Assembly: GCF_001316265.1 (NCBI RefSeq)
Contig: NZ_BBDN01000004.1
Location: 62,001 to 126,000 of the forward strand
Length of the DNA: 64,000 bases
DNA from: Vulcanisaeta sp. JCM 16159
GTDB lineage: Archaea > Thermoproteota > Thermoprotei > Thermoproteales > Thermocladiaceae
Direction: 5' to 3'
Positions 20,897-42,226 of the stretch are shown piece after piece (position 1 is the first letter of the stretch; each line of letters begins with the position of its first letter). A program made the position numbers and the translations under genes. The notes under the pieces are model-generated. The model saw only the letters and a list, made by a program, of their open reading frames with translations. It had not been told where the DNA came from and did no database searches.

Positions 20897-20918
20897 TTAT
20901 TCCACATTATAGGAATTA
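20897..20918 (-). promoter_or_regulatory. YGTGDAATAA-type site before proton-ATPase gene
   Basis: On the minus strand TGTGGAATAAAA, directly upstream of the TTTATAAAA box of the ATPase promoter; the flanks form TTCC-N8-GGAA. Same motif and orientation as before the apr and dsr genes. Confidence 0.45.
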
Positions 20919-20989
20919 ATTTAGTATAAAATTCAATAATTTTGACAATTAATAAATAATAGTGAATAGAAATGCCTGTGAAAATGTGC

Positions 20990-21684
20990 CTAACCTAGCT
21001 TAATTATCGTACTTGTCAATGGCACATCCCTAAGGAGGCCCAGGTAGAAGTAATCCTCATTAGCCTCAATAACCACTAGGTTTTCATTGGGTAGTAACCT
21101 CCTGAGTATTTCATGGATTATGAAGTACTGCGTGTATGATGGTCTTTTCAACTCGTTATTAAGGATCCAAGTCCTTAACCCGTTGTAAAAGTCGGTAATT
21201 GATGCGATTATGTGCTTGGATAATTCATTCAACGCCTTATCAACCTCCCTATCATCCTTAAACTCATTCTTGAAGAGCCTTATTGTTGCACCGTTATTTA
21301 GGGCCTCATCATAAGCCATACGATGTGATCAAGGACGTGCCTACATATGAAATAGCCGTTAAAGAACCTCAATGCCTTAATGATCAATTCTACGTAATTA
21401 ACCACCAATTGCTCCTTATTCCTGGCCTTACCCAACTTCCTGCCAAGAGTCAGGGAACCATCCTCACGCATCTTTAAGTAGTCCTCAATTCGCATTACCG
21501 ATGGCCCTATTAATGACAGGTCAATTATGTACGCAGTGGGCACTAACGCGCCCCTTTCCACCCTGACTAATTGTTCCATTGGAACTATGTGAATCTTAAT
21601 AAATAGGTCGGCCCTCTCCCTAATCAATGAATTTGGTTCGAACAACCTGACCTTAGCCACTGCGCCTTCAATGATGCTATTCAT
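20990..21684 (-). CDS. Conserved-looking protein of unknown family, paralogue A (one frame break)
   Basis: No family recognised. About 231 residues from ATG 21684 (MNSIIEGAVAKVRLFEP), which sits just after a TATATATT box. Shares with the next gene upstream the block ADLFIKIHIVPMEQL (there AELFIKIHIVPID) and FNGYFICRHVLDHIVWL (there FRGYLLCGDVLNYLIWA), so the two are tandem duplicates. The frame breaks near 21305. Mostly helical; no membrane segment. It lies between the proton ATPase and its own paralogue, and has an ATTCCACA-N5-TGTGGAAT operator-like repeat at its promoter. Confidence 0.65.
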
Positions 21685-21733
21685 TATGCTGGTGTTACTC
21701 ACAATAATATATACATAAAAATATTTATTAATA

Positions 21734-21756
21734 CTATTCCACAATTCATGTGGAAT
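21734..21756 (-). promoter_or_regulatory. Perfect inverted repeat ATTCCACA-N5-TGTGGAAT
   Basis: Eight-base arms around ATTCA (21736-21756), just upstream of the TATA box of the paralogue A gene. Arm sequence and 5-base spacer are the same as in the repeat before aprM (31816-31835). Confidence 0.6.
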
Positions 21757-21784
21757 TAAGTATGATGAAACTGCAATAGAATGA

Positions 21785-22411
21785 TCAGTACAGGCCCGCG
21801 TAGGTACAATCATCGTTAAGCCTCAGCAATATGAGGGTCGAATTCCTAAGGTCCTTAAGGATATTACCAATTAATTCATGATCCGCATGAGCCTTACTTC
21901 CTAGTACGTAATTAACCAAGTTACAGGTTATTGCATTGAACAATTCATTTAACATCTTTATAATGGACCTTCCCTTAACGCCACGACTCACTAATTCGCT
22001 CACAAGGTGCCTACCCATGACTTGGTCATAAGCCCATATTAGGTAATTAAGTACATCACCGCATAGTAGGTATCCTCGGAACATTGTTAATAATTTCATC
22101 TCATAGTTTAAGTAAGGATTTAGTAATTGTGAGTGCTCCTCCTTTAGGCGTGCTCTACATGGCTTGATATCACCTATTAATGTTAACGCCTCCTTAATTA
22201 TCAATCCTCCCTCAACATTAATCTTAACCCTAATACCACCGTTGGTAAACTCAATGAATGCGTCTATCGGTACTATATGTATTTTAATGAATAACTCGGC
22301 ATTCTCCCTAACCCTACTGCTTGGGTCATGCGTCTTAGCTAGGTTTATGGCGTTATTAATTAATTCGTTAAGCTCATTGGGCATGCTTAATTCAACACAT
22401 CGCCTCCCCAT
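21785..22411 (-). CDS. Protein of unknown family, paralogue B
   Basis: About 208 residues from ATG 22411 (MGRRCVELSMPNELNEL); GTG 22417 is possible. No family recognised. Sequence blocks shared with paralogue A (AELFIKIHIVP and a Gly-Tyr-Leu-Leu-Cys segment) show a tandem duplication. Helical, soluble, few charged clusters; the C-terminus (LILLRLNDDCTYAGLY) is unique. Complete open frame. The promoter region is shared with a divergent winged-helix gene and holds both a CCACGTG site and a perfect TCTCATAATTATGAGA palindrome, so it is probably regulated by one or more DNA-binding proteins. Confidence 0.65.
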   Translation of the reverse strand: MGRRCVELSMPNELNELINNAINLAKTHDPSSRVRENAELFIKIHIVPIDAFIEFTNGGIRVKINVEGGLIIKEALTLIGDIKPCRARLKEEHSQLLNPYLNYEMKLLTMFRGYLLCGDVLNYLIWAYDQVMGRHLVSELVSRGVKGRSIIKMLNELFNAITCNLVNYVLGSKAHADHELIGNILKDLRNSTLILLRLNDDCTYAGLY

Positions 22412-22422
22412 TATCACTCTAG

Positions 22423-22438
22423 TCTCATAATTATGAGA
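22423..22438. promoter_or_regulatory. Perfect 16-bp palindrome TCTCATAATTATGAGA
   Basis: Lies 12 bases upstream of the paralogue B start, downstream of its presumed TATA element (TTTTAAAT), where a repressor would block initiation. The near-identical sequence occurs at the 5' end of the proton-ATPase gene. Confidence 0.55.
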
Positions 22439-22448
22439 TTTAAAATTA

Positions 22449-22465
22449 ATTCCACGTGAAATAAG
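22449..22465 (+). promoter_or_regulatory. TTCCACGTGAAATAA site between divergent genes
   Basis: Contains GTGAAATAA (22456-22464) facing the 22497 gene and, on the other strand, CGTGGAATTAA facing paralogue B. The central TTCCACGTGAAA is an almost perfect palindrome. Confidence 0.5.
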
Positions 22466-22496
22466 TATTTTTAATTCGACAACTAGGAAATATTAG

Positions 22497-23171
22497 ATGA
22501 TACCTGGTGTTGGCATTGACATTGTGCACTTAATGATTTTAAAACTGGTACTTCACGCTATTCGCGAGACTTCGAGGGATGATAATGCAAATCCACTATG
22601 GTTATCACTGGCTGGGCACATTAGTAAGGCGACATTCTATAGGAGGGTCTCCGAGCTAGAAATGATGGGGCTTCTAGAAAGGATCAGCAGGAATAAGTAC
22701 TTAATAAGTATTGGCGGTTACCTATTACTAGTCTTTGCGTACTTCATGCGTATTAACGGTATTGATGAGGATACGGCGAGGGCAGCGATTAGCGCGATTA
22801 AAGGTAGTTGGGGATTGACGGACTTTAATGATTATGAGGTTGAGAGCTACCTAAGGTTACTTTACCTAAGTAGTGGGGGTAAACTCAATAGTGATGCTAT
22901 TTCGTTGTATCAGGAATTTCCAAGAAACGTTTTGCTCGTGTTACCCAACGATCTTAAGCTTACAAATACTGATTCGCTATATGAGGCATTAGTTAATGAG
23001 TATGGAAGTGCCGATTTAATTAATGGAGCAAGGAGGGTTATCGCCAAGGCACTAATTGAATACTTCCCAACCACAAACATTAATGGGTGTAGGTCTGTGG
23101 CATTCATAGGCAATGATAATAGGGTTAGGGTATTAGCAATGCAATGCGATAACGATTACATACTTAACTGA
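22497..23171 (+). CDS. Winged-helix protein, possible transcription regulator
   Basis: 224 residues, not assigned to a family. The N-terminal 70 residues look like a winged helix: LVLHAIRETS, then LAGHISKATFYRRVSELEMMGLLERI with a recognition-helix pattern, followed by a basic wing. The remaining 150 residues are helical with no recognised domain (FNDYEVESYLRLLYLSSGG). It is transcribed divergently from paralogue B, with a CCACGTG site and a palindrome between them, and may regulate that gene. Its 3' end overlaps the convergent dsrN-like gene by 16 bases. ATG 22497 is the only good start. Confidence 0.6.
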   Translation: MIPGVGIDIVHLMILKLVLHAIRETSRDDNANPLWLSLAGHISKATFYRRVSELEMMGLLERISRNKYLISIGGYLLLVFAYFMRINGIDEDTARAAISAIKGSWGLTDFNDYEVESYLRLLYLSSGGKLNSDAISLYQEFPRNVLLVLPNDLKLTNTDSLYEALVNEYGSADLINGARRVIAKALIEYFPTTNINGCRSVAFIGNDNRVRVLAMQCDNDYILN

Positions 23172-24535
23172 GCCTTGCTCTTTAGTATCCCCCTCATTAT
23201 CTTACTAACTACGTCATAGGTGTCTGGGTGAATGTGCAGATAATGTGCATAGGCATTATTTATTTGAAAACCATCAAAGCCGTTTATCCCTGCACCCCTC
23301 TCATACTTAATTACGAAGTCGTAATTGCCATGCAGGATTAGTGAGGAGTAATGAAACTCATGCCCCATCAATACCAAGCCGGCATTACCAATGATGGAAT
23401 CCCTAATCACCCTAGCCCTTGCATAACCATACCACACGGGCCTTCTATGCATTACTGTGACCGCGTCTATGGCGCCCACCATCTCGTACTCCTCATTATT
23501 GTATATAATCGAGTTAGTTAAGTACATCAAGCCCCCGCACTCGGCGTATAAGTGCTTCCCCGAATCTATGAACCTACGCACATCAGCTAAGCGCCCTGTT
23601 CTTCTCAAGGGCTTCCCCATAAACCTCGGGAAAACCACCACCAATTAGCAATAGGTCTATATCACCGAGCCCCTGATCAACCTCCGGGTCAATAAACCTG
23701 ACATTCCTCGTGAGTGATTGAACCCTTTCTATCGTCTCTGGGTAATAGAATGTAAAAACCCTACCACTGAGTATACCCACCCTCAATTCATCACTAACGA
23801 TATTGGGCATTTCGGGAATTACATCACCCCCAACATCGAGGGGTTCAGAGTACTCCCTAGCTACCTTAACGACCTTATTAACATCTATGAACTTCGACGC
23901 GTCATTGAACACCTTAATTAGGTGTTGCTTATTGATCTCCTCAGCATGTATTAGGCCTAAATGCCTATACTGCATTGCATTCTCAAGATCGTCACTCCTT
24001 GGTACATAACCAAGGAACTCCAGGCCCTCGCCCTCCACGGCAATCCTCAACTTATCGACCTGTCTCTGCGTAGTGTTGGTAATTATGGCGCCTACGATCT
24101 TCACATCGCGGTCGAAGTCCCTCAATCCCCTGATTATCGCCCTCACGGTCCTATTAATCCTCTCACCATTAATGACCAATATGACCGGCGCCCTTAGTAA
24201 TTTGGCTATTTGGGCGGTGCTACCCACCTCACTGATGCCGTCAAAGCTGTCGTAAAGCCCTGAGACGCCTCAATAATGGCGATGTCTGAGTTCAAGGAGT
24301 ACCTATAGAACCTCGTTATTACCTTATCGCCCATCAGTACGTAGTCCAGGTTCCTACTTGGTGCATTTACAATTACTGAGTGGTAACTTGGGTCTATGTA
24401 ATCGGGACCAACTTTAAACATGGATACCCTAAGCCCTGCCTTAATTAAAGCATAAGTCAGCGCTAGGGTTACTGTGGTCTTACCGTTCCTGCCCTTGTAT
24501 GAAGCCACGACAAGCCTAGGCACTGTCACCTCCAT
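23156..24535 (-). CDS. CbiA/DsrN-like glutamine-dependent amidotransferase for siroheme (two frame breaks)
   Basis: Cobyrinate a,c-diamide synthase family: ATP-dependent amidation of tetrapyrrole acetates using glutamine. The N-terminal P-loop VVASYKGRNGKTTVTLAL is followed by FKVGPDYIDPSYH; the C-terminal glutamine amidotransferase part has the nucleophile in YAECGGLMYL and the His in MGHEFHYSS. Segments join near 24210-24240 and 23590-23640; total about 460 residues. In sulfur bacteria the family member DsrN amidates the siroheme of DsrAB, and here the gene overlaps cobA in a sulfate-reduction island with no other cobalamin genes, so DsrN function is the better inference. Confidence 0.82.
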
Positions 24536-25166
24536 GCCCATCACGCCTCACTATGAAGATAAGTGACGGGGCCTTCACATTATCAGTGTCAGAGCTATTA
24601 TTAAGTCTATGAAACTCCTCGTCTGGGTATGTAACCCTACTAACTATTAAAACCTCGTGATCACCATCTAACTTGCTAATTAATTCCTTAATCATCCTCG
24701 TGCCCATGAAGACGATCTTAACGTCAGCCTTAACATCGTAGTCAATGTCTGGATATGCCATCAACGCAACCACACCTCTCAATTCAACCATGTACTTGGC
24801 TGCGGCTGCCGTAAAACTACTGACCCCCGGCACTATTTCACAGGGAACACCATTACGTAGGGCCTCCCTGCAAATCTCAATTCCTCTGCCAAATATTACT
24901 GGGTCCCCATTCTTGAGGAAAACCACGTTAAGTCCTTTCCTGGCTAATTCTATTGCCTTAATTACGTACTCCTTATGCGCATCGCCTCTTACGTGCCCCA
25001 TGAATATTTTCCTGGCATTTGGCGCGTACATGTTTATTATCTCCTCATTAACTAATGAGCCGTAAAACACAACGTCAGCCCTACTCAATACCTTAATAGC
25101 CTTCACGGTAATAAGCTCGGGATCCCAAGGACCGGCACCAACAACGTAAATTGGGATAATAATCAC
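24516..25166 (-). CDS. cobA: Uroporphyrinogen-III C-methyltransferase
   Basis: Methylates uroporphyrinogen III at C2 and C7 to make precorrin-2, the entry to siroheme. 216 residues with tetrapyrrole methylase signatures: VGAGPWDPELITVKAIKVL, ADVVFYGSLV, FLKNGDPVIFGRG and VPGVSSFTAAAA. GTG 25166 is the first start after an in-frame stop. It overlaps the dsrN-like gene, so both are co-expressed. Siroheme is needed by DsrAB and is also the precursor used by the AhbAB homologue at 47.8 kb. A TGTGTAATAA site lies upstream at 25207-25215. A C11-methylase of the same fold is the alternative but the SUMT-like motifs fit better. Confidence 0.85.
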   Translation of the reverse strand: MIIIPIYVVGAGPWDPELITVKAIKVLSRADVVFYGSLVNEEIINMYAPNARKIFMGHVRGDAHKEYVIKAIELARKGLNVVFLKNGDPVIFGRGIEICREALRNGVPCEIVPGVSSFTAAAAKYMVELRGVVALMAYPDIDYDVKADVKIVFMGTRMIKELISKLDGDHEVLIVSRVTYPDEEFHRLNNSSDTDNVKAPSLIFIVRRDGHGGDSA

Positions 25167-25206
25167 CCATTACTTAACCTATTGGTTTATGGTAATTAAA
25201 TAATGG

Positions 25207-25226
25207 TTATTACACATGGCATGTAA
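25207..25226 (-). promoter_or_regulatory. TGTGTAATAA site before cobA
   Basis: TTACACATGGCATGTAA forms an inverted repeat TTACA/TGTAA; read toward cobA the half-site is ATGTGTAATAA, the same variant as before dsrA. It is 41 bases from the start codon. Confidence 0.4.
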
Positions 25227-25234
25227 AAATCCCA

Positions 25235-26029
25235 TTATTCTAAAATACGAATCTTCCTCAATTCCTTAATTTCACGTAGTAAAACACAATCATGGCAATC
25301 ACTTAGTATTTTCATACCCATGCATGATTTCCCGCAAAGCCTGCACATGTAAACATACGCATTACCATCAAGGCCTATATTAACCACGAATTTATCATTA
25401 CCAATTAGGATTGATGATTTCGTAATTATACCGCCATCAATAATTAACCTATTAATCAAATAATGCATTGCCATGTTAATTACATCATTAAGTATGTCGT
25501 ACTTAATTAATGACTTTAATTGATCTTTACGCTCGAGTATTACCATCATGACTGTCCTGGGGTCGTCAATTACTCTCATAATATTGCCATCAATGCTTAT
25601 CAACGCAGGTAATACATTTATTATCTTCATGACCCTTTGACAGCAATAACTCCTTAGATGCCATTTTTGGCATAGCTTATTAAAAATCATATCTTCATCG
25701 TCAACGCAATCGAGGGCCAGACACGTCAATAGGCCCTTAACCGTTGATACGTATATATTTCTCTCACTATTGACTTCACCAATACTTAATGACCTTATTA
25801 GCCCATATTGAATCATTTTCCTAGCCTTCTTATAAACCGTTGAGATGGCGAACCTCGTATTCTTGGAAATCCTATATAACGTCACTGGTTCGTTATAAAT
25901 AATATAAGCCAGTAGATCCTTGATAGTATCGTCAATATCCATCTCGGTCTGGAGTCGCTGCCGTAGTAATCGAATAGTATTAACGTGCTCATCATTGATT
26001 ACAGATCTATTCATCAACATGGTGCTCAT
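25235..26029 (-). CDS. Winged-helix regulator with C-terminal Cys cluster, copy 1
   Basis: 264 residues. A helix-turn-helix lies at about residues 40-85 (ITLYRISKNTRFAISTVYKKARKMIQYGLI in pattern; here VTLYRISKN..AISTVYKKA), followed by an effector region with GLLTCLALDCVDDE and a C-terminal cluster CRLCGKSC ... DCHDC. The cluster, CxxCxxxC plus CxxC, could bind a metal or an iron-sulfur centre. The gene at 31988-32775 is a clear paralogue with the same order of elements. The two copies flank the sat-apr operon. A GTGCATAAAATGCATT palindrome lies just upstream of its TATA-like element. A redox or sulfur-sensing role is inference; no named family was recognised. Confidence 0.7.
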   Translation of the reverse strand: MSTMLMNRSVINDEHVNTIRLLRQRLQTEMDIDDTIKDLLAYIIYNEPVTLYRISKNTRFAISTVYKKARKMIQYGLIRSLSIGEVNSERNIYVSTVKGLLTCLALDCVDDEDMIFNKLCQKWHLRSYCCQRVMKIINVLPALISIDGNIMRVIDDPRTVMMVILERKDQLKSLIKYDILNDVINMAMHYLINRLIIDGGIITKSSILIGNDKFVVNIGLDGNAYVYMCRLCGKSCMGMKILSDCHDCVLLREIKELRKIRILE

Positions 26030-26069
26030 CAGTTACGTATATATTCAGATGAATAAATATGATTTGATC

Positions 26070-26086
26070 AGTGCATAAAATGCATT
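26070..26086. promoter_or_regulatory. AGTGCAT-AAA-ATGCATT palindrome before Cys-cluster regulator 1
   Basis: Seven-base arms with one mismatch, about 41 bases upstream of the start and immediately upstream of an ATATTTATTC promoter element. Related palindromes occur at 32816-32837 and 57380-57394. Confidence 0.5.
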
Positions 26087-26123
26087 AAATAAAATCCCTT
26101 ATAAATAAAGGGCATGTCTCTAT

Positions 26124-27135: not shown

Positions 27136-28507
27136 CACCTCCTCAACGGCACCTCCATTGGTGGTACATCAACCTCAAGCTCTCTCTCCTTTAACTCAAG
27201 GTACTTCTTATTAACGAATGGATAGCCATAAACCCTCCACCACTTAACAATCACCCTATAAACCTCGGGCCTAAAGATTATTGGTGGTGGCTCAACACCC
27301 TCCGCAATTAATCCCCTAATGAAACTACCACTGAACCTCTGGCTATGTCGGTGTGCGCGCACGTGTCGCTATAGGTAATTTCACCGCACTTCGGGCAATA
27401 CCAGAACTCCTTAATGTTAACAGGCCTAATCTTAAGTCCCTTGTCAAGATCATAGGGTGGGGCGTTGAGACCGTAGCTCGGTATGCCCTTCTCCCAAAGT
27501 ATCTGTGTTGCGTATGGGTCGTAGTAATCGCCGACAGCTGCGTGGTCCCTACCAAACATGTGGTGCGTACAACCCATGTTCTGCCTAATTATACCGTGAA
27601 GTAACGACTCAAGTGGATTGCCATACCTCATATCCCATAGCGTGAAGGTAACTATGTGTCTCCTCGGACTTATATAGCCATACTTATTAAGCGCCTCGTG
27701 ACCCTCGAGTATTGCCTCATCGACGAAGTCGCCGAGCCTCTTGGCACCGATTATAGCATTGACGAGTATTCCATGGCACGGCTCAATATCGCCTAAGTAG
27801 GTGCATTCTTCATTAAGTGCTCATGGCCTGTGTGCGGCACATTCCTAGTCTGGTGGGCGATGACAGTCCTCCAGCCCCTCCTCTGTATCTCCTCGCGGGA
27901 CTTGGCAGGTGGGTACCAGAATCTATTATACGGCTCCTTAAACACAGGCTCATTAATCACGTAAACCTTACCTGCCAATGCTGTGCCGGTCATACTCCTA
28001 TATATCAACCAGCCGGGGTGCTTCTCATCAAACCTCTTCTTAACAACCTCGGGATTCCTCTCTGGCGTTCCAAACGTCCTATCAGCCAAGTCCTTGGGAT
28101 CAAACCTCCAAATCTCCTCGACATCAAGTATTGCAAACGGTTGTCCCTTAAGCCTAAGTAATAACCTATCACCCTCCTTAATACTAAGCTTCTTCAGATC
28201 ATCCTCACTTATATCAAATATTATTGGGAATGGGAACAACCAACCATCGAGGAGCCTCCTCTCCTTAAGCACATTCTCAACCTCATTCCCAGTCATGAAC
28301 TATCCAGTGGCTGAAGAAGCCGTAGGCGATGGACATTATCTCCCTATACACATTCCTAATGGGTAAGCCACTCACTGGGTCCCTAGTGGCCTTTATGTCG
28401 TATGGTACTGCGCCAGCGGCCATGTTAATTGCCTTATCCCTATCCTTAACCACCGCATCCACCAGTTTTCCACCGTGTGGGGGTGGCATGTAGACCTTGA
28501 GACTCAT
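27135..28507 (-). CDS. sat: Sulfate adenylyltransferase (ATP sulfurylase; several frame breaks)
   Basis: Activates sulfate with ATP to adenosine 5'-phosphosulfate, the first step of dissimilatory sulfate reduction. In order: N-terminal PUA-like domain (YMPPPHGGKLVD ... SGLPIRNVYREI), the active-site stretch QTRNVPHTGHEHLMK containing HxGH, PCHGILVN, GRDHAAVGDYYDPY, a zinc ribbon CPKC...C..T, and the end FSGSFIRGLI. About 457 residues over the joined frames, with breaks near 28296, 27800 and 27330. ATG 28507 has a GAGGTGGT ribosome site. Downstream of aprA in the aprM-aprB-aprA-sat unit. Confidence 0.93.
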
Positions 28508-28517
28508 ATCGACCACC

Positions 28518-30419
28518 TCATGGGAACTCTATTATGTGTATCACGGGAACCTTCCATAACTCCCACTGACCTGTCTTCGCATCATACCTTGAGTTAACGA
28601 ATACGTGCCAATTCTCATCGTCGAGCGCTGGGTAATCCGCCCTAACGTAGTAGCCGGGCCACCTGGTCTCCTTCCTAAACAGCATGTGCCTAACCACGGC
28701 CTCCGCAGCCAATATCCTATGCCAAAGCTCCCAAACCCTCATTAACTCGTGCCAGTCCTGGGCGGCGGCGTAGTTAAGGAAGTCCTCCTTAAGGAACTGC
28801 AGTAACTCTAGACCCCTGTTGAGCATGACTTCATTGGTCATGTAATAATTAGACCAACCACCTGCGCATTCATCCATGATCTTCTGAAGCCTAAATAAGC
28901 CCTGTTTCCAGTACATCTTAGTTGGGTCTATTGGATGCATGTAACTCGGGCCGGTGACAACGCTATACTTACCCTTCTGGTAACGCTCCAGTGGTTCCAT
29001 TACCTTGGCTATTAATGAATCGACTTGTGCCTTATCCACCTCAACCTTCTCATCACTGTGATCCATCACGTATAATACGGCGGACTTACCCGCCAACCTG
29101 CCTTCAGTAAATGAACCACTACTAAACTTATGCGGATTAGCGCCGCATGCATCACCTGCGCAGAATAAGCCATCCAGCGTTGTCATCCTGTTATAACCCC
29201 AGTAATACTGGTATCCCCTATCATCGGGTAAACCCTCGATCTTCCTGGGCGCCAGATCCTCAGGGCCACTGGGCCATGCACCGCACTCGGTAGCGTGGCT
29301 ACCCATCACGTAGGGTTCCGTGGTAATTACCTCATATGCCTATCGGCAGGTTCATGGTTCTGCCCAGCCCATATAACTACCTGGCTTATGGTCATGTCAA
29401 GGAAGTCCTCATAAGCTATTGCCTCACTCTCCGTACCCCTCTTGACGGTTTCGTCAGTCCTCATGAGGCTTGGCCCACGGCCAGCCATCCACTCAAGGCG
29501 TTGGGCGAATACCCTAAGTGTTGTTGGAGTAATGGGTAAGTCTGCGTACTTACCCTTACCGCTGTATAGCTTCCTTATCTCATCGACATGAGGCTTCCAG
29601 AAGTCCTGGCCATACGCATTAGTAATTCTCGTCTTAAGTAATAGCTGATATGCACCAACAGGTCCATAGCCGTCCTTAAATCTTGGTACCACAAACCTGG
29701 CCTCCATCATTGTCATCACAGCGCCAGCTTCAATCATCATACCATAGGATGAGGCCGAGGACCACGGCGGATACCAACTCCTGCCAAGTCCCTCACCCTG
29801 GACCTAGGCTATAAATCTGTGAACCACCGCCTGCGGCTAGTATGGTTGCCTTTGCCTTGAATACGTAAAATGTGCCGTCATTAACGTTAAAGCCTATGGC
29901 GCCAACAACCCTATTGGGATTGCCAGGGCTCTTAAGCAGATGCGTAACCATTACCCTATTAAATATGTTCTCATCACCAAGGGCCTTCCTGGCTGCCTCA
30001 GCAACTATCGGCTTGTAGGACTCTCCATGAATCATTATTTGCCACTTACCCTCCCTAACATAGCACCCAGTCTTTGGCTCGGGCCATATTGGTAGTCCCC
30101 ACTCATCGAATAGGTGGACTGTTGAGTCCACATGTCTTGCATAGTCGTAAACGAGGTCTTCCCTCACTATGCCCATTAAGTCGCCCCTGACGTACTTAAC
30201 GTAGTCCTCAACCGTGTTTTCCTTGCACTTTAGACCCATGTACGTATTGATTGCCGATAGTCCCATCGCCACCGCACCGCTCCTATTAATATTCGCCTTC
30301 TCAGCCAATACTATTCTACAGTTTCTACACCAATACCTGGCCTCCCAAGCGGCTCCACTGCCGGCCATCCCACCGCCGATTATTAAGATGTCCGTATCCA
30401 CATACCTAACCTTCGTCAT
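28518..30419 (-). CDS. aprA: APS reductase alpha subunit (two frame breaks)
   Basis: FAD subunit that reduces APS to sulfite and AMP. The N-terminal FAD motif is DILIIGGGMAGSGAAWEARYW; conserved AprA stretches include INTYMGLKC, YDYARHVDSTVHLFDEWGLPIW, EAGAVMTMMEARFVVPRFKDG and FCAGDACGANPHKFSSGSFTEGR in pieces. About 634 residues. Breaks near 29745-29790 and 29310-29325. Starts 4 bases after aprB ends with a good ribosome site, so strictly coupled. Electron entry is through AprB. Confidence 0.94.
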
Positions 30420-30922: not shown

Positions 30923-31789
30923 TCATGAGTGCTTCTTTGGATGACTTGGTACGTGGGACTCAAGCGCTCTCTCGGCTAACTCGCCACTCCACGGCCCAAG
31001 CAACCTGGGCTCCACGCCTTTCCAGGTCCTATACTTATCGTATAACTGCCATATGTACATGTAAATTGCATGTCCAAACTTAGTCCAGGGCATTGTGGCG
31101 AACATCATGGCCACTAGGAATATGTGCACGCTAAATGCCGTCGCCAATGCGTAGTAGTTCAATGGCATCGTTAACTCAATGCCCATTAATGCAAAGCCGC
31201 TTAATGAGACGAAGAAGGCGGTCCAGAGGAAGAAGTCCGTAACTGCAGACTCACTGGTCGGCCTGGTCCCCTGCCACCTAGCGATCATCATAAGTATAAA
31301 CCCAATAATTATCAAAACGCCACCAACGGCGCCAGTACCTATAACGGCGTATGGACCCATGGGACCAAGCTTACCACCCGGTATGAAAGCCACGAGACCA
31401 GGTACATCACTCGAAACCCACTCATCATAAATGAAGCCTAGGACCGTTGATATCGCCGCAAATACGAAGCCCCACCAAATTAATGCATGTGCCACCGCCT
31501 TAACCCTAGGTTTCCTTAAGTATAGTGATTGTGTATGGCATGAGGTCATTGGCGCGCCATAGAATGGGTATAGGAAAGCCATGACTAAGCCGGCAATAAA
31601 GGCGCCCGCGGAGCCCCAATTCCTCGTTGGACCCTTTATCGGTAATACCCTACTTAAATTTGAAAGGGCCAGTACACCTCTGCCTATCTCAACGGCGAAG
31701 CCAATAACCATCTCTATAACCAGCGCTATGGCTCCGTAAATTATCCATAGGTGCGGTATTGGTAGGTACAGTTCGATCATCAATTTCAT
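30923..31789 (-). CDS. aprM: AprM-type membrane anchor of APS reductase
   Basis: 288-residue integral membrane protein with about seven helices and several His residues in helices (HALIWWGFVFA, HIFLVAMMFATMPWTKFGHA) as in quinone-linked cytochrome b-like proteins. It is first in the order aprM-aprB-aprA, which in many sulfur oxidisers replaces QmoABC as the membrane link of APS reductase. No qmo genes are in the window. The likely role is exchanging electrons between the quinone pool and AprB; haem binding is not proven. Upstream lies an ATTCCACA-N5-TGTGAAA repeat. Confidence 0.78.
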   Translation of the reverse strand: MKLMIELYLPIPHLWIIYGAIALVIEMVIGFAVEIGRGVLALSNLSRVLPIKGPTRNWGSAGAFIAGLVMAFLYPFYGAPMTSCHTQSLYLRKPRVKAVAHALIWWGFVFAAISTVLGFIYDEWVSSDVPGLVAFIPGGKLGPMGPYAVIGTGAVGGVLIIIGFILMMIARWQGTRPTSESAVTDFFLWTAFFVSLSGFALMGIELTMPLNYYALATAFSVHIFLVAMMFATMPWTKFGHAIYMYIWQLYDKYRTWKGVEPRLLGPWSGELAERALESHVPSHPKKHS

Positions 31790-31813: not shown

Positions 31814-31835
31814 TTATTCCACATTGATTGTGAAA
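31814..31835 (-). promoter_or_regulatory. ATTCCACA-N5-TGTGAAA repeat before aprM
   Basis: Arms at 31816-31823 and 31829-31835; read toward aprM it gives TGTGGAATAAAT, ending 25 bases before the start codon. Same spacing as the perfect repeat at 21736-21756. Confidence 0.55.
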
Positions 31836-31987: not shown

Positions 31988-32775
31988 TCATTTTATCAGA
32001 TTTGATATATCTTTATTTAATTCACTAATTAATGGGCAATTATTATTGCATGTCGTATACGTTAACACGCAGTTTTTCTCACATAATCTGCATATGTATA
32101 CATAAAGCATCTTATTGTTCCTGTAGTATCCTACTAGGAATGAGCTGTTACCAAGTATTATATCTGGCCTTTTAATGTTTGATGTACTATTTATTATACT
32201 ATTTACCAGGTAATAAATCGAGGTATTCTTTACACTGGTTATTGTTGTCTCGTCGATGAGTTTACTATTTATTGCTGAGTTATTAATTAACGTACTTAAT
32301 GCCGTTATCATTAGCGTATCTATATTCTCAATTATCCTTAGCTCTCGCCCTTGACTACATACGGTAATATCATCAGTATTGATATTAACCTAATGTTATC
32401 ATAGTTCCTTAAGTTCCATTTAACCTTAAGTCTATTCAATATGGCATCATCATCGAGACATTTATAGGCTAGGCACGTTAGTAATCCCTTAACTGTAGCT
32501 TCGTACATGTGCCTTCCATTTAATTTATCATCCACTTCCTTAGCTATTATCAAGTTGTTCTTGACCATGTATTTAGCCTTTTTATAAATTGATGAGATAC
32601 TATACGGTGTTTCTCTGGAAATTCTGTATAATGTAATTGGCCCCCTCATGATCACATAGGCAAGTATATCATTTACTACATTGTCGTACTCAACATTTAC
32701 GAGCCTTCGAAACTCCAGCCTTAGGCTTTCTGGAATCAAACTTGCGTTACCTGTGATGATATCACTGTATTTCAT
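31988..32775 (-). CDS. Winged-helix regulator with C-terminal Cys cluster, copy 2 (one frame break)
   Basis: Paralogue of the 25235-26029 protein: helix-turn-helix ITLYRISRETPYSISSIYKK, the block GLLTCLAYKCLDDD, a region with the same helices, and a C-terminal cluster CRLCEKNC ... CNNNCPL. Frame break near 32325. Start taken at ATG 32775 (MKYSDIITGN), about 30 nt from a TTTTATAAC box; ATG 32796 is the alternative. It sits between the dsrMK1 module and aprM, both on the same strand, and its own promoter carries the perfect TTAGTGCAA/TTGCACTAA palindrome. Likely a local regulator; ligand unknown. Confidence 0.7.
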
Positions 32776-32815
32776 TAAATGTTCATATATATTCATTTGT
32801 TATAAAATCAGTTGC

Positions 32816-32837
32816 TTAGTGCAAAAAATTGCACTAA
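32816..32837. promoter_or_regulatory. Perfect inverted repeat TTAGTGCAA / TTGCACTAA
   Basis: Nine-base arms around AAAA, directly upstream of the TATA-like TTTTATAAC of Cys-cluster regulator 2. Core GTGCA/TGCAC is shared with 26070-26086 and 57380-57394, so autoregulation is plausible. Confidence 0.6.
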
Positions 32838-32901: not shown

Positions 32902-34317
32902 TTAAATAACCAACGCTCTATAAACCAAGTCCATAAGCCCTGAATACTTAATCTCCTTACTATACATTTTATTTAGGTATGGAACAACATGACTGAGTTG
33001 AGCTTTACAAATTGAACAAGGCCTAATAATCCATTGAGCATTCTTCTTAAGTGCTTCCTCATACCAGAGCCTTGCGTATTGCGTGACTAATGGTACTACC
33101 TCATCCGTTAGATTCCCTCCTTGACCTCCACAGCACCAGTCCATGACCTATTATGTTCTGGGTCAACCCACTTCTTAACAACGTGACTAAGTATGAACCT
33201 TGGTTCCTCCGTTAAGTCCCCTCCCTAGCATATTGGCATGGGTCTTGATACATATAGATTATGTCGCCATTGGCCTCAGGGTTTAGTTTTATCTTTCCGT
33301 TTCTTATTGCCTTCGCGACGAGGTGGTGTATATGCACTAATTCTATTCCGTATTCTTTAAGCCTTGGTAATGTATAATTCTTGTGAGCTCTCCATGCATG
33401 GCCGCACTCACCAGCAATTACTAACTTTACGCCTAATTCTCTGGCAACGCTAACGTACTTTTCTGCTAATCCCTGGAGGTGCTTAGGATGTAGGAATAAT
33501 CCGAAGTTGGCCACCTCTACTGCCTTTGTGCTTAATGTATAGTCTATACCGGCGGCGTGTAGGAATAGTAGATAGCCCTTGAGGGTCTCCATATTCATGA
33601 AGTAGTCGGCTGATGACGGTAGTAATAAGGCGTAGGCTGGTTCATCGATCTTGACCTTAAGTTCAACTCCTTTTTCCTGCTTTATTTCCTTGACTACGAA
33701 GTCGATTATGGACTTAACAGCCCCAGGAGTCAAATTCATGTTATTACCACTCTTCCAATGAGCATCTACCGTTAATGCCGTGAACCTAGACGCCATACCT
33801 ATTTCATAAAGTATCGCCCTAACAGCCTAGTTACATCAGTCTGCTCAACACCAAACGGGCAGGCATAGCCACACCTCCTACATATTAGGCATAGCCAGTA
33901 ATACGTATAAACCTTCCTTATATAATTCATATCAATCTTCTTAACAGCACCGACAGCCTTACCAAATAACTTACCGCTGACCTTATCCGCCTTAATTACG
34001 GCCCTTATTAACTCAGCACGCCCGACAGGTGAGTTATACGGATCACCAGTCGTTATGTATGTTGGACAGGCACTCATGCACTGACCGCAATGAACGCATA
34101 CATCCACAGCCATCTTAACATTCTTATTATTGTTATACTCCTCAAGTAGCCTTTTCTTAAAGTACTCTACCTTCTCTTCGTCGGTAATTGCTGTTTGCTT
34201 AAATTTAATGGTCTCATGAAGTCTTGAGACCAGCTTTTCATCAGCCATGTAGTGCATAAAGTTTGATACATCACCCCACTTGAATGGTCTTTCCTTGAAT
34301 ACCTTATCGTAGGCCAT
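32902..34317 (-). CDS. dsrK: DsrK-like iron-sulfur subunit, copy 1 (three frame breaks)
   Basis: HdrD/DsrK family: catalytic iron-sulfur protein that reduces the DsrC trisulfide. Two ferredoxin motifs CVHCGQCMSACP and CLICRRCGYACP, then the CCG domains with AGECGHAW, DPCQYAR, WCCGGQGG and RPCSICKAQL. About 470 residues over frames joined near 33797, 33212 and 33150. Starts 6 bases after dsrM1 ends. The proteins are smaller than the bacterial DsrK of about 540 residues. Confidence 0.88.
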
Positions 34318-35169: not shown

Positions 35170-35179
35170 TTATTTCACG
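35170..35179 (-). promoter_or_regulatory. CGTGAAATAA site before dsrM1
   Basis: Minus-strand TACGTGAAATAATG, ending 34 bases from the dsrM1 start, in the divergent region shared with the 35230 gene. Confidence 0.45.
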
Positions 35180-35229
35180 TAGTATGGGCAAAATGGAATA
35201 AAAATATGGCATTATTATCCAATATAGTA

Positions 35230-35763
35230 ATGAGTAATGATGAGGATGAAAGAAGCAAGGAAATACTCGAAATAATAAGGAGAGCTAAAGATGCAGGTTT
35301 TATCGAGGAAATCAGTATATCTGATGTAATCGAAGATGTAATAAAATCAACAGAGGAGGTTAACATCATATTGTATATGCAGAGCAGTGCACCTATATTA
35401 ATAAACGCAGCTAAGGAAGAGGGTTACGTATCACTTGCCCTACTTGATTTAAATCTCACAATGAATATCAACCTTGAAGAATACCCCGCTATCGCGCAGT
35501 CTTTTACGAATCTTGAAGAGATAACTACAAGGATAGGTTATGAGTTGTATGGAGATAGGTCAATTGCGCCGTTTCTATTTCCACTTAAACTTAATATGAA
35601 TGATAAAAGAGCAACCATTATCTGTGGAATAAAGGCTGCGATCACCGAAGATTTATTTAATGAAAACTTCATAGAGGGTTTAATAGATAATCTAGAGCTT
35701 AATTATACTGAATATTTTACAAGCATTTTAAATAATATTGAGGTCACCAAGAAAGGAGAATAG
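35230..35763 (+). CDS. Unknown protein embedded in the dsr island
   Basis: 177 residues from ATG 35230 (MSNDEDERSKEIL), about 26-36 nt after GGAATAAAAATA, a good promoter element; ATG 35206 would leave no room. No family recognised. The N-terminal third is acidic and helical, followed by VNIILYMQSSAPILINAA and a C-terminal helical part. No Cys motif, signal or membrane segment apart from one hydrophobic stretch (CGIKAAI). It is the only plus-strand gene between 25 and 38 kb, divergent from dsrM1 and overlapping the convergent dsrE gene end by 20 bases. Role unknown. Confidence 0.6.
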   Translation: MSNDEDERSKEILEIIRRAKDAGFIEEISISDVIEDVIKSTEEVNIILYMQSSAPILINAAKEEGYVSLALLDLNLTMNINLEEYPAIAQSFTNLEEITTRIGYELYGDRSIAPFLFPLKLNMNDKRATIICGIKAAITEDLFNENFIEGLIDNLELNYTEYFTSILNNIEVTKKGE

Positions 35764-36096
35764 AGTTCTTAGCGGTTTCAAATAAATCCTTTGGTTCCGC
35801 AATGATTACGCCATCTATAAGTTCTTCCCTTTTAACATTGAAACCCTCCATGCAACCTTACAAGCCATCACCTTAACATTATTCTTTATGGCCTCCCTTA
35901 CCATATTCCTTGTGGTCTCACTTAATTTTTCAAACACGCCCCTCTTAGCAATTAGTATAGAGTGAAGTGCTAGGTATATAAAAACATCGTAACCTAAGGA
36001 TGAAGCAATCAATGCGAGCCTTAACACGGCTTGAATGCGATCCTCCTCTGAAGGGGGCATGGTTGTAAAGAAAATAATCCTACCCTTTTCGCTCAT
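35744..36096 (-). CDS. DsrE-family protein (one frame break)
   Basis: Small sulfur-carrier-like protein of about 117 residues. Pattern matches the DsrE fold: IIFFTTMPPSEEDRIQAVLRLA, LGYDVFIYLALHSI, and the Cys-containing strand VKVMACKVA; after a frame break near 35860 it continues MEGFNVKREELIDGVIIAEP. The Cys would be the persulfide-carrying residue. It lies downstream of dsrK2 on the same strand with its own promoter-like region containing a 10-base inverted repeat. Another DsrE-type gene lies at 56919. Confidence 0.75.
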
Positions 36097-36126: not shown

Positions 36127-36155
36127 TTTTATTTCACATAAACCATGAAATAAAA
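36127..36155 (-). promoter_or_regulatory. Perfect inverted repeat TTTTATTTCA / TGAAATAAAA
   Basis: Ten-base arms around a 9-base spacer, overlapping the last codons of dsrK2. Read toward dsrE it gives ATGTGAAATAAAA, 33 bases before that start. It could instead act as an RNA hairpin ending the dsrMK2 transcript. Confidence 0.5.
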
Positions 36156-38700: not shown

Positions 38701-38720
38701 TTCGTTTATTTATTTATCCT

Positions 38721-38731
38721 TTATTTCACAT
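38721..38731 (-). promoter_or_regulatory. ATGTGAAATAA site facing dsrM2
   Basis: Minus-strand GCATGTGAAATAAAG, 21 bases from the dsrM2 start in the dsrM2/dsrA divergent region. Confidence 0.45.
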
Positions 38732-38750
38732 GCATCGAAGTAATATACGT

Positions 38751-38765
38751 TCCACGTGTAATAAG
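38751..38765 (+). promoter_or_regulatory. TCCACGTGTAATAA site facing dsrA
   Basis: Contains CCACGTG and GTGTAATAA (38757-38765), 40 bases upstream of the dsrA start and just before an AT-rich promoter element. Confidence 0.5.
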
Positions 38766-38804
38766 CTTTTCAAAATAATTGTACTGAACAATCTATGATA
38801 AGGC

Positions 38805-40048
38805 ATGGGCGTAGAAACTTCCCAAAAATCGAGCGACCTAGAACGTGGTATGAAGATGCTTGAATACCTTGAGAAGGGTCCCTGGCCTAGCTATGTCACA
38901 GAACTTAAGAAGACGAAGTACCCACTTGAACCCTACGCCGAGGGCCTAGCCAGGAAGTACACACCATGGTATAGTGGTTCCTTTAGGGTTAGGTATGTAT
39001 TCAGTGGTATATTGGCTAGGAGGAGTAGGGATGGTAAGTTCGTGGAGATTCACTTCAGGACCTATGCACCAGCCGGCAGATTCTACTCAACTAGTTACCT
39101 GAGGAAGGTTGTCGAGGTTGCCAAGAGGTATGGAATTGGCTTAGTGGAGTTCGGTGGCAACACGGGCGCGTTGGTCATGAATATGATTGCGGAGAAGGCT
39201 GATGAAGCTGTTGATGCCATTAGGACCATAATGGTAGTGACGTTGGTGGTTCAGGCGATACGTTCAGGGAATTCTACGCATGCCCGGGGCCAGCCCTTTG
39301 CGAATTTACATTATACGATACATTACATGCAATGGATTACGTTAGGTCACACCCAGCGGTTTATAGGTACTTAAACACGCAGATGTTCCCGTACAAGATA
39401 AAGTTCAAGTTCAGTGGTTGTCCAATGGACTGCGCCACGGCAAATTCCAGGGCTGACTTCGCATTAATCGGCACCTGGATTGGTGCCCCTGAGGTTGATC
39501 AGGGATTGTTTAGGAAGATGGTTGAGGAGGGTAAGATAAATCCGAAAGAAATTGTTGATTCATGTCCGTCAAAGGCCATTACCTGGGATGAGGAAAAGAA
39601 GGAGCTTAGGATCGATGGCTCTAAGTGCTTAAAGGCTATGAATTGCATTAGGAAGGCATTCCCAGCAATAAGACCAGGTAAGAATAGGAAGATCGCTTTG
39701 CTCGTTGGTGCTCATGTTCAGGGGCACTTCGGACCTAAGCTTGCAAGAGCCGTTGCCCTGTTGGACTCTATTGAGGAAGTTATTCCATTTGCCACAGAAT
39801 TAATTAATAAATACATGGAGCTAGCTCCACGTAGGCATAGAATAGGCGACATGATAATTAAGAGAGGTTTTAAGGTCATTAGTGAGGTTGCTGACAAGAC
39901 TCTACCAAATAAGCCCAAAGGAACACCATCATCACATTTGAGGATCTCAATAGGGACTAATTTAACCGATGATGAGAGGAAAATGTATGAAGATTGGGCT
40001 AAACAAATAATGAACGAATACTTTGGAGGTGGTTCTAGTTCGAGGTGA
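38805..40048 (+). CDS. dsrA: Dissimilatory sulfite reductase alpha subunit (one frame break)
   Basis: Reduces sulfite with siroheme and [4Fe-4S] clusters. About 414 residues. After the substrate-domain start (PSYVTELKKTKYPLEPY, IHFRTYAPAGRFY) the frame slips near 39232 and continues SDVGGSGDTFREFYACPGPALC, the CxxxxxC motif, then FKFSGCPMDCATA, the CxxxC motif binding the siroheme-coupled cluster, and a ferredoxin-like insert with C...KCLKAMNCIRKAF. The ferredoxin domain shows fewer Cys than usual. dsrB overlaps its stop codon. Confidence 0.94.
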
Positions 40049-41181
40049 TGGGTATGAGTCTCTCCATAACTCCTGAACCTAGGGATAGGTCAAATAAGAG
40101 GTTACCAGTACCGTTCTCGGCCCAATTACCTGAAGTTATTAGGAGTAATTATGGTAGGTGGATTGATAGGAAGTTCCATGGTAATGGAATCATTGAACAT
40201 ATATCCGAGACTGGTGATAAGGTATTCACGGTTAAGGTTGGTTTACCGCCAAACAGCAGGGTTAGTGTAGATACTCTTGAGAAGTTCATAGAGATTGCTG
40301 ACAAATATGGTTTAGGCGTTGTTAGGGCTACTAGGGGCATGAACCTTGAGTTCATAACTGACAGTTTAGACAAGGCCTTGAAGATTAAAGAGGAGGTTGA
40401 GAAACTCGGCTTCCCGGTGGGAGGATGGGGGGAATCTCTATGGCATATAACATCATGCACGGCTTACCTAACTTGTACAACAGCGGTTGTTGATGCACCA
40501 TCAATAACCCAGGTACTCTATAATCACTTAAAGCCGTTCTTCACTGGTGAGGTGAAGTTACCGGCTAAGTTAATGATTTTTGTGGCGGGTTGTACAAATA
40601 CATGTGGCGGTACGCTAGCCGGTGACATAGTGATTGTTGGGCACTATGGACAAGCACCAAAGCCTGACCCAGAGAGGATAAAGTTCTGTCTACCTACTAG
40701 TGCCGAAGCTCTCAAGAAGGTTGTACCTGACATAGCGGCTGTATGCCCTGTTGGTGCAGTTAAGCTCTTTGGTAAGCCAGATGGTTCGGTAGGTATCGAA
40801 ATTGATGAGAGGAAGTGCATAGCATGTGGTAGATGTAAGAATGTCTGCGATTACCTTGATTGGGATCCATCAAAGATTGGCGTTGCAATATTCGTGGGCG
40901 GTAAGACGAGTAATACGGGCACAGGACCGAGGTTACCCTATAAAGTAATTCCATGGTTACCGGTCAACCCACCCGAGTACAGGGAAATCGTGGCAGCCGT
41001 AAGAAAAATAATCGATGTGTGGAGGAGAGAGGCTAAGCCTGGCGAAAGACTTGGCGACTTCATTGATAGGATAAGTATTGATGAGTTCATGAATAAGCTT
41101 GGCGTTCCAAGGACTAGACATAACAGGTGTGAGGAGATTTCCTGGAACTTTGGTGTTAGGCAGTTCATAACATATATGTAA
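40048..41181 (+). CDS. dsrB: Dissimilatory sulfite reductase beta subunit
   Basis: Partner of DsrA in the alpha2beta2 enzyme. 377 residues, intact frame. The siroheme-cluster motifs are CTAYLTC and AGCTNTCGGTLAGD, with the ferredoxin domain CIACGRCKNVCDY and AAVCPVGAVKLF. ATG 40048 shares its A with the dsrA stop (TGATG), so translation is coupled; ATG 40054 with an upstream GGTG is possible. Confidence 0.95.
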   Translation: MGMSLSITPEPRDRSNKRLPVPFSAQLPEVIRSNYGRWIDRKFHGNGIIEHISETGDKVFTVKVGLPPNSRVSVDTLEKFIEIADKYGLGVVRATRGMNLEFITDSLDKALKIKEEVEKLGFPVGGWGESLWHITSCTAYLTCTTAVVDAPSITQVLYNHLKPFFTGEVKLPAKLMIFVAGCTNTCGGTLAGDIVIVGHYGQAPKPDPERIKFCLPTSAEALKKVVPDIAAVCPVGAVKLFGKPDGSVGIEIDERKCIACGRCKNVCDYLDWDPSKIGVAIFVGGKTSNTGTGPRLPYKVIPWLPVNPPEYREIVAAVRKIIDVWRREAKPGERLGDFIDRISIDEFMNKLGVPRTRHNRCEEISWNFGVRQFITYM

Positions 41182-41258
41182 TTATTTGATGCCCTTGTTA
41201 AAAATGATTAAATTATTTTTATCTTTATTTGAAATTCCAATGAATTTATGTGTTTAAA

Positions 41259-42185
41259 ATGATAAACATAGTTTTAACTCCACCAGGGATTGAATACATT
41301 AAATACTTAAGGGAGGTTGCATATCACTATGATACTTTCATTGCTGAGGTTCCTAACGTTGAGGGTGTTAGACGGTATTTAAATGGTGAGATTGATTTTA
41401 ATCAATTGCTTTATGAGATTGAGTATTTTGATGTCGATTATTCCAGGGAGTTTTACGGGATGTTAAGGGGACTTATTAATAACGGTATTAATGTGGTGCC
41501 TATTGATCCCTATGGCTCAATTAGTATGAGGATTAGGGTTAGGGCAATACTTAATGATTTGGGTCATGTGTCATTAAGTAATGAGGAGGGGTATATAGCC
41601 TTCATAGAATTGAGGATCGCCGAAGCTTATAGAGGCTATAATTCAGCATTGCTTAGGGGTAGCTTTGAGGATGCTGTGAGGTATGTCTTGAGGTATGCGA
41701 GGCTCGATGCGGAGAGGATAAAGTTTAGGTCTGAGTTGAGAGCTAGGGAAATAGTGAAGCTATTACGTAGTTTAAACGGGCATCACGATGTATTGATACA
41801 CGCGGATCATTATAATGAGGTCCTTATGGATTACTTAAGCAGAAAATTAATGTGTAAACCAGGTGTCATAAGGCTTGGTGATGCGGTAAGTAAGAGGTTG
41901 GGAATAAGGCCATGGGCTCATCCAGGAGTTAGGCTAACTAATAATTACGTTTATGAGGTATCCATGGATAAAAATGGGGAGTATCTACTTGCGTCTCGGG
42001 CATTAATATATGCATTATTAAAGGTGAGGGTTTTTAGAAGGGTTGATAGGGGAGTGCTCGGTGATAGGGCTATACTGATTGACAGTTCGTTAATGAGGTT
42101 AGCATATGGATTGAGTATTGATGATGCTAGGGGCATTTTTAGGAAGTTAGTGATGCCGAGGAATATGTTTAGGATAAGAGTGTAA
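41259..42185 (+). CDS. Unknown protein between dsrB and dsrC
   Basis: 308 residues from ATG 41259 (GTG 41250 is an alternative). No family recognised with confidence. Alternating strands and helices: TPPGIEYIKYLREVAYHYD, then VVPIDPYGSISMRIR and an RARE-containing helix followed by HHDVLIHADHYNEVL. The overall pattern faintly recalls the TIKI/TraB/ChaN superfamily, but this is weak. Soluble. Its position between dsrAB and dsrC on the same strand suggests a role around sulfite reduction. No known dsr gene corresponds. Confidence 0.55.
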   Translation: MINIVLTPPGIEYIKYLREVAYHYDTFIAEVPNVEGVRRYLNGEIDFNQLLYEIEYFDVDYSREFYGMLRGLINNGINVVPIDPYGSISMRIRVRAILNDLGHVSLSNEEGYIAFIELRIAEAYRGYNSALLRGSFEDAVRYVLRYARLDAERIKFRSELRAREIVKLLRSLNGHHDVLIHADHYNEVLMDYLSRKLMCKPGVIRLGDAVSKRLGIRPWAHPGVRLTNNYVYEVSMDKNGEYLLASRALIYALLKVRVFRRVDRGVLGDRAILIDSSLMRLAYGLSIDDARGIFRKLVMPRNMFRIRV

Positions 42186-42213
42186 AGAGTTTATCGTCAT
42201 GCAATTACACATA

Positions 42214-42226
42214 TCACGTGAAATAA
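42214..42226 (+). promoter_or_regulatory. TCACGTGAAATAA site before dsrC
   Basis: The octamer TCACGTGA (42214-42221) is a perfect palindrome and extends to CGTGAAATAA, 42 bases before the dsrC start. Confidence 0.5.

Follow-up and report, generated by a model that had tools for sequence, protein, structure and literature searches.

In bacterial sulfate reducers the regulators Rex and HcpR control the genes of sulfate respiration through inverted repeats that contain GTG. Among archaea, regulators of the TrmB type activate from sites upstream of the factor B recognition element (BRE) and the TATA box and repress from sites downstream of them (PMC4158304), and for Archaeoglobus transcriptional control through a pyrophosphatase gene has been suggested, no operator being given in the parts of that article consulted (PMC3949148). 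In the open-access literature, as judged from titles and the openings of abstracts and with subscription papers mostly outside this scope, neither an operator nor a regulator of dissimilatory sulfate reduction was seen for Vulcanisaeta and related archaea. Here we analyse a stretch of 64,000 nucleotides (nt) from the hot-spring archaeon Vulcanisaeta sp. JCM 16159 (contig NZ_BBDN01000004.1; the whole stretch is called the window below) and a short palindrome that stands before many of the sulfate-respiration genes within an island of about 21.3 kb (positions 20897-42226), the remainder of the window comprising about 43 kb.

The palindrome has 19 letters, TTNYAC-N7-GTGNAA (N7 standing for seven unspecified letters), and the unit of the operator is an inverted repeat of GTGNAA with arms mostly 7 bp apart. 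In all likelihood it is bound by a regulator that would switch sulfate respiration as a unit. As to how it works, an operator bound by a dimeric winged-helix protein of a family here named wHTHC, with activation as the likeliest action, is the explanation that we regard as rather probable from the sequences compared. The site supplies a DNA sequence, a list of genes and a candidate protein, and thereby makes the switching of sulfate respiration in archaea directly testable.

Form and distribution of the palindrome

A preliminary description of this DNA had singled out an oriented 10-mer, YGTGDAATAA, as the recurring element. In the window it has ten strict matches, and all ten fall within 20897-42226; outside the island there is neither a strict match nor one with a single letter relaxed. 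Shuffled versions of the window contained 1.16 matches on average and 4 at most, and 0 of 100 shuffles attained ten. The entire genome (2.249 Mb) holds 46 matches and 48 of the reversed pattern; the motif, being no commoner genome-wide than its reversed control, is therefore not a general promoter element. Ten of the 46 lie within the 21 kb of the island, for which the rate outside would lead us to expect 0.34 per 21.3 kb (Poisson P for at least ten matches, 5e-12). In 400 kb of control sequence from the same genome, counted on both strands, the half-site occurs 4 times versus 10 for its reverse, and the N7 palindrome once versus once; the corresponding counts on both strands of the 22 kb island are 10 versus 1 and 7 versus 0.

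When the sites are aligned a mirrored arm appears upstream, and YGTGDAATAA turns out to be the gene-proximal half of the palindrome: a real half-site, but an incomplete unit. We scanned for TTNYAC-Ns-GTGNAATA with s from 0 to 25 in 26 dsr-locus stretches (354,203 bases, including part of the window). There were 41 matches at N7, 7 at N0, 2 each at N18 and N25, 1 at N17 and none at any other spacing, while the motif read backward gave 1 match in total, with 0 at N7 and 0 at N0; these counts are not independent events, because near-copies from relatives are included and both strands of near-perfect palindromes were counted separately. The sites of the window and the genes behind them are as follows.

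20897..20906, minus strand: half-site TGTGGAATAA of the proton ATPase, kept in 5/5 aligned genomes and followed by the TATA element TTTATAA
20656-19157 and 20907-20626 (N-terminal), minus strand: open reading frames (ORFs) of the P-type proton ATPase, split; best model TIGR01647, below cut-off
21737..21755, minus strand: operator of parA (paralogue A), N7 form TTCCACATGAATTGTGGAA; half-site in 7/7 aligned genomes of the genus
22450..22461, no strand assigned: N0 operator TTCCACGTGAAA between the divergent genes parB (minus) and 22497 (plus), the latter of winged helix-turn-helix (wHTH) type
24516-25166, minus strand: cobA, siroheme C-methyltransferase, downstream of the operator at 25210
25210..25228, minus strand: cobA operator, N7 form TTTTACATGCCATGTGTAA; full form in 8/8 Vulcanisaeta rows
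31817..31835, minus strand: apr operator, N7 form TTTCACAATCAATGTGGAA, before aprM (30923-31789)
35170..35179, minus strand: half-site CGTGAAATAA of the dsrM1 operator; second arm 4/5 here
36129..36138, minus strand: half-site TGTGAAATAA of the dsrE operator, before ORF 35815-36096; second arm 4/5
38721..38730, minus strand: half-site TGTGAAATAA of dsrM2; second arm not clear
38750..38764, plus strand: dsrA operator, N0 form TTCCACGTGTAA plus TAA
42205..42226, plus strand: dsrC operator, N7 form TTACACATATCACGTGAAA plus TAA

The strict form TTNYAC-N7-GTGNAA thus stands at four places in the window (21737, 25210, 31817 and 42205); two others (22450 and 38750) have the N0 form TTNYACGTGNAA. At dsrM1 and dsrE the second arm, which here agrees at four of its five fixed positions, is perfect in some relatives: the dsrM1 site reads TTGCAC-N7-GTGTAA in genomes G017, G018 and G021, and the dsrE site has a perfect second arm in G019. 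Behind the operator at 31817, aprM is followed on the same strand by the aprB, aprA and sat ORFs. The dsrC operator lies within the longest ORF, 42199-42570, and the true start codon is therefore probably an ATG further downstream. The palindrome at 22450 has a TATA-like element on each side; its half-site toward gene 22497 is kept in 5/7 rows, and on the opposite strand it also faces parB, as GTGGAATTAATTTTAAA, a site absent from the earlier list. All ten sites of that list are present in the places and orientations reported for them, and ten is also the number of strict matches, but the two sets are not identical: the half-site of parA, TGTGGAATAG, is not a strict match, and the strict match at 35623 (+) is coding, lies inside ORF 35206-35763 and was rejected as a promoter site. 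A match to the relaxed pattern at 24833 is likewise coding, inside the cobA ORF.

Some neighbouring features deserve mention. A second perfect palindrome, TCATAATTATGA, is found upstream of parB at 22425-22436; it is largely kept in the genus, G018 excepted, and does not occur in the 400 kb control. The genes parA and parB (21298-22417) and HP35206 (35206-35763) are conserved in the genus beside the dsr genes; Pfam yielded nothing for parA, parB and HP41250, and only sub-threshold matches for the seven other scanned ORFs, HP35206 among them.

The gene names are of unequal standing. DsrB and DsrC are named by NCBIfam models above cut-off, and DsrK, DsrM, the QmoC-like AprM and CobA by models below it; sat is named through its relative in G024, and the names AprA, AprB and dsrE were given by eye or come from the preliminary description, the dsrE ORF (35815-36096) having no NCBIfam match. 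The genes for the ATPase, cbiA, sat, aprA, wHTHC2, dsrK1 and dsrA are each split into several ORFs in the window (stretches 19157-20907, 23156-24544, 27793-30419, 31988-32796, 33212-34317 and 38805-40048). Insertions or deletions in the assembly are a likely cause, since relatives of some of these genes, e.g. wHTHC2 and dsrA, form one open frame.

Conservation in Vulcanisaeta and its family

Conservation was followed in 25 genomes of the family, comprising the genus Vulcanisaeta (g1) and the three other genera (g2, g3, g4); counts refer to rows in which the half-site or some form of GTGNAA is present, and for parA and the ATPase to aligned genomes. Within Vulcanisaeta the site is kept in 8/8 rows of aprM (second arm perfect in seven, poor in G024) and, always with a perfect second arm, in all eight of cobA. 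It is further present in 8/9 rows of dsrA, 9/10 of dsrM1, 6/8 of dsrC, 4/4 of dsrE and 2/2 of dsrM2; the misses at dsrA and dsrM1 are second copies in G024, and those at dsrC are both G024 copies. The sat ORF has the site in 0/7 rows, yet sat of G024 carries a half-site ahead of its full reading frame. Outside the island, the site G000:C2:93668 of the genome to which the window belongs stands ahead of dsrE2-, tusA- and hdrA-like genes, and the dsrE2 operator recurs in G017, G018, G019 and G021, i.e. in five Vulcanisaeta genomes altogether, and in one g2 genome (G004).

Across the 25 genomes, the N7 form with AATA gives 61 rows and 9 control rows. In the five that are 99% complete (G001, G014, G017, G018 and G024) there are 19 such rows and 3 control rows, and 17 of the 19 belong to palindromes before parA, cobA, aprM, dsrM1, dsrC or dsrE2; the remaining two are a row before a flavoprotein oxidoreductase (named by eye) in the dsr region of G024 and a row of G014 that has no assigned gene. 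In g2 the cobA gene, 49-52% identical to that of the window, has been relocated, and the operator precedes it in 5/5 genomes; in G001 it lies about 0.4 Mb away from dsr. In g3 the divergent genes dsrA and dsrB of G009 and G010 share a single N7 palindrome between them, flanked on both sides by a TATA-like element, and in G007 and G008 the palindrome is found at dsrB near a contig end. The seeming absence of N7 from g4 is due to a difference in spacing: in the palindrome between divergent dsrA and dsrB of G011, G012 and G013 the arms are 6 bp apart, and those genomes contain no other N6 match. Over the 25 genomes the N6 pattern gives 18 rows and 10 control rows, by which an overall enrichment is not clear; six of the 18 are the three g4 palindromes read on both strands, all at dsr, and the other twelve come from outside g4. 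At the main dsr promoter the half-site GTGNAATA is present in 19/19 dsrB-bearing genomes, with a second arm that is perfect in nine and agrees at 4/5 positions in the other ten (the better of N0 and N7 being taken). A single palindrome at the divergent dsrA and dsrB promoters of g3 and g4 would serve both directions.

The same operator is found on two separate DsrB lineages inside one family, as judged from a tree and from sequence identities. In a DsrB tree of 36 rows, Vulcanisaeta groups with one of two lineages of the more distant f3 genomes (support 100/98) and g2-g4 group together elsewhere (100/100), with the warning that long branches meet; identities of Vulcanisaeta DsrB are 41-46% to g2-g4 and up to 65% to f3, whose genomes are generally without the operator. 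This suggests that the regulation persisted while the lineage of the core enzyme differed. The order's more distant genomes (f2 and f3; n=20) have 7 N7 rows and 2 control rows, so the regulon is not, as a rule, shared by them. Four of these seven (G027, G028, G029 and G035) were looked up: the G027 site precedes a DsrE2-like gene and the G028/G035 match appears to be coding, both by eye. In twenty f3 DsrB loci the palindrome occurs once (L193), and of the half-sites dispersed over them one stands before dsrA in G044.

A regulon for sulfate respiration extending to siroheme supply, as proposed in the preliminary description, is supported by the conservation across genera, the relocated cobA, the off-island dsrE2-tusA-hdrA-like operon and the strict spacing. 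It would comprise apr-sat, dsrAB, dsrC, dsrMK-like genes, siroheme synthesis and the dsrE2-tusA-hdrA-like operon, to which Vulcanisaeta would add the proton ATPase and the small-gene cluster. The site predicts membership for the tandem paralogues, gene 22497 and the proton ATPase; the first two hold good within the genus (parA 7/7, gene 22497 5/7), and for the ATPase the conserved element is confined to a half-site.

Several observations count against so unified a picture. The ATPase and dsrM2 have a half-site only, with a second arm that agrees at best at 3/5 positions; the promoter of HP26124 has the site in 0/9 rows, and that of HP41250 a half-site in just 1/7. In G024 a second dsrAB (G024:C6, L129) and a further dsr-like set (G024:C1, L072) are without the operator, and two N7 rows in G002 have no gene assignment. 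Outside Vulcanisaeta the site is found in 0/5 dsrC rows and 0/7 dsrM-like rows, and in 0/3 cobA-like rows of G009, G012 and G013; owing to these gaps the regulon looks wider in Vulcanisaeta than elsewhere. Finally, contig G000:C11 of the own genome (L118) has three operator matches, at 5433, 9735 and 14314, near other genes.

The L118 matches share their neighbourhood with two TetR-like genes and a pair of permeases, TauE/SafE-like by eye, and each match is followed by a palindrome of the type TTGAC...CAA; one of the permeases was compared with NCBIfam and received no name.

Candidate regulator genes

The likeliest binder of the operator is the wHTHC family, a link that we infer from circumstantial evidence. 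Its two members in the window, a weaker candidate and a second kind of palindrome are as follows.

25235..26029, minus strand: wHTHC1, candidate regulator with winged helix and C-terminal cysteine cluster; relatives in 19/19 dsrB-bearing genomes
31988..32796, minus strand: wHTHC2, paralogue of wHTHC1; two ORFs here, a single open frame in L022-L026
22497..23171, plus strand: gene 22497, wHTH-like, weaker candidate regulator or downstream regulator, with its own operator and a sub-threshold TrmB match
26072..26084, minus strand: TGCA-N5-TGCA palindrome at the site where wHTHC1 transcription is predicted to begin
32820..32833, minus strand: TGCA-N6-TGCA palindrome close to the site where wHTHC2 transcription is predicted to begin

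Matches to wHTHC occur in all 19 family genomes that bear dsrB and in one of the six that lack it. The gene is less than 4 kb from dsrB in g2 and closely adjoins it in g3, and Pfam detected no other helix-turn-helix (HTH) protein among nine dsr-locus proteins of G009 and eight of G001, in scans that left out dsrA, dsrB and, for G001, dsrK. A structural model of wHTHC1 has a mean confidence score (pLDDT) of 62 and is weak outside the DNA-binding domain, where residues 31-80 form a block at 86-89; it comprises the elements of a winged helix, with helices at residues 34-46, 51-57 and 62-74 and strands at 78-82 and 91-95. The top Foldseek hits of the model are MarR-type proteins, none of which reaches an E value of 0.001. 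The Pfam model of the F-93 winged helix (PF22194) gives wHTHC1 23 bits (E 8.6e-5), under its cut-off of 28. For TrmB (PF01978, cut-off 25.6) the scores are 13.6 bits for wHTHC1, 13.8 for wHTHC2, 20.0 for gene 22497 and 22.9 for the g2 relative in G001, all below the cut-off, and that relative exceeds the cut-off of HTH_24 (PF13412; 23.5 bits vs 21.9), for which the window proteins are not listed. Most Vulcanisaeta members carry a C-terminal cluster CxLCxKxC...C, and through these cysteines the signal might be redox or sulfur status.

Not all of this favours wHTHC. The absences from dsrB-lacking genomes are weak evidence, since those genomes are 54-88% complete. The cysteine cluster is missing from the relatives in g2, g3 and g4; g3 and g4 yield weak matches (E 7e-6 to 1e-12) that mainly cover the HTH, and the protein of G009, in g3, has no Pfam match at 0.01. 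In g4 the gene lies on a different contig from dsr, and the wHTHC genes do not themselves carry the operator.

It is possible, though on balance doubtful, that the operator is genuine and its binder another protein, e.g. that of gene 22497-23171 or a factor encoded elsewhere. In most of the genus the operator also stands before gene 22497 itself, which is not so for the wHTHC genes, and the low similarity of wHTHC in g3 and g4 would also fit. However, gene 22497 is matched in 12/25 genomes, none of them in g3 or g4, nor G001 or G003; it is unmatched in G001, G003, G007-G010 and G011-G013, which all bear the operator, and wHTHC is matched in all nine.

If wHTHC is the regulator, its own genes may be autorepressed, via the TGCA palindrome at their start sites. 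A TGCA-N5/6-TGCA palindrome accompanies 17/18 wHTHC genes of the genus, one of them with TGTA, and L028 has none; in L029, where the start is truncated, it is found solely far upstream. In 13/16 scanned genes it starts 20-22 nt past a TATA-like element. Since 15 palindromes of this kind occur in the 400 kb control, its position and its conservation are all that argue for it.

Proposed activation, its rivals and described systems

The right arm of the operator meets the BRE ahead of the TATA box. In 8/11 window promoters a TATA element (score at least 6/7) starts 10-16 nt past the first G of GTG; at parA the best one starts at 21 nt, and the elements of dsrE and dsrM2 are weak. From the end of the motif to the likely start codon the window sites measure about 20-49 nt, in agreement with the 20-50 nt reported before. 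We aligned 157 promoters from the 400 kb control sequence by their TATA elements; directly upstream of TATA they are A-rich and BRE-like, and GTGNAA is found in 1/157, the reversed motif in 2/157. As control promoters are A-rich without an excess of GTGNAA, the AATAA of the motif falls on the BRE, and the GTG arm constitutes a separate element.

A dimeric winged-helix protein on this operator would abut the upstream edge of the BRE and could switch the sulfate-respiration genes jointly, and activation, in which it would aid the binding of TFB and TBP beside the operator, appears likelier than repression. The operator, upstream of BRE and TATA, fits the geometry of activation, and the TGCA palindrome, downstream of TATA, fits that of repression.

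The main rival, somewhat unlikely in our estimate, is a repressor operator: the protein would overlap the BRE, exclude TFB and be released during sulfate or sulfite respiration. The right arm extends into the BRE region, and archaeal DNA-binding regulators are mostly repressors according to the portions of PMC4158304 considered. The operator touches the BRE, so that its occupation might also shut TFB out, which tells against activation. On the other hand, the arm keeps a near-constant distance upstream of TATA in those 8/11 promoters, unlike TrmB-type repressor sites, which lie downstream of BRE and TATA (PMC4158304), and a different palindrome, with the downstream geometry of a repressor site, is present at the candidate regulator genes.

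Very improbable is the alternative already named in the preliminary description, that the motif is a mere variant of BRE/TATA, together with its extension to a longer BRE read by an alternative TFB. Part of it stood: AATAA coincides with the A-rich BRE and TATA comes next, and TFIIB-family matches turn up in three parts of the genome, clear in two of them and weak in the third. The GTG arms, however, do not belong to ordinary promoters. Equal frequency at the promoters of unrelated genes, which that description had regarded as decisive against a regulon and which a core-promoter element should show, was looked for and not found, whereas a fixed-spacing inverted repeat conserved at orthologous promoters, as expected of an operator, was found, some genes and genera excepted. 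The plain BRE/TATA reading is rejected on the genome-wide, 400 kb and 157-promoter controls; the alternative TFB is not retained either, since an arm mirrored at one exact spacing, like one palindrome between divergent promoters, is not expected of a BRE. Chance, or the common ancestry of near-identical but functionless sequence, can be dismissed: some of the Vulcanisaeta genomes are indeed close (wHTHC1 is 92% identical in G016), but the site is conserved across genera with 41-46% DsrB identity, on two DsrB lineages and at a relocated cobA, with controls near zero.

A wider scenario may be put forward tentatively. An undescribed family of regulators would sense sulfur or redox status and command sulfate reduction throughout the family via BRE-adjacent operators, whose half-site spacings of 0, 6 and 7 would be interchangeable (N7 in general, N6 in g4 and N0 at certain promoters); this control would have outlived the change of dsrAB, and the two Vulcanisaeta paralogues would repress themselves via the second palindrome.

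Among described systems, the bacterial Rex and HcpR operators, TTGTGA...TCACAA, have the opposite order of arms to TTNCAC...GTGNAA and work with a different promoter machinery. The activators Ptr2 and TFB-RF1, as outlined in PMC4158304, resemble the present case in the proposed mode, i.e. a site directly upstream of the BRE and contact with TBP or TFB; activation is here deduced from position, and the likeness concerns that mode. TrmB, TrmBL1 and Tgr of the Thermococcales differ in the sequence of the operator and in serving sugar metabolism rather than sulfate respiration, and the proteins here match no TrmB model above the Pfam cut-off. With these regulators, as far as they are treated in the text of PMC4158304 considered, the system shares a palindromic operator, a winged-helix protein (here a candidate), a site upstream of BRE and TATA and its recurrence at several promoters of one pathway, as well as a palindrome at the start sites of the candidate regulator's own genes.

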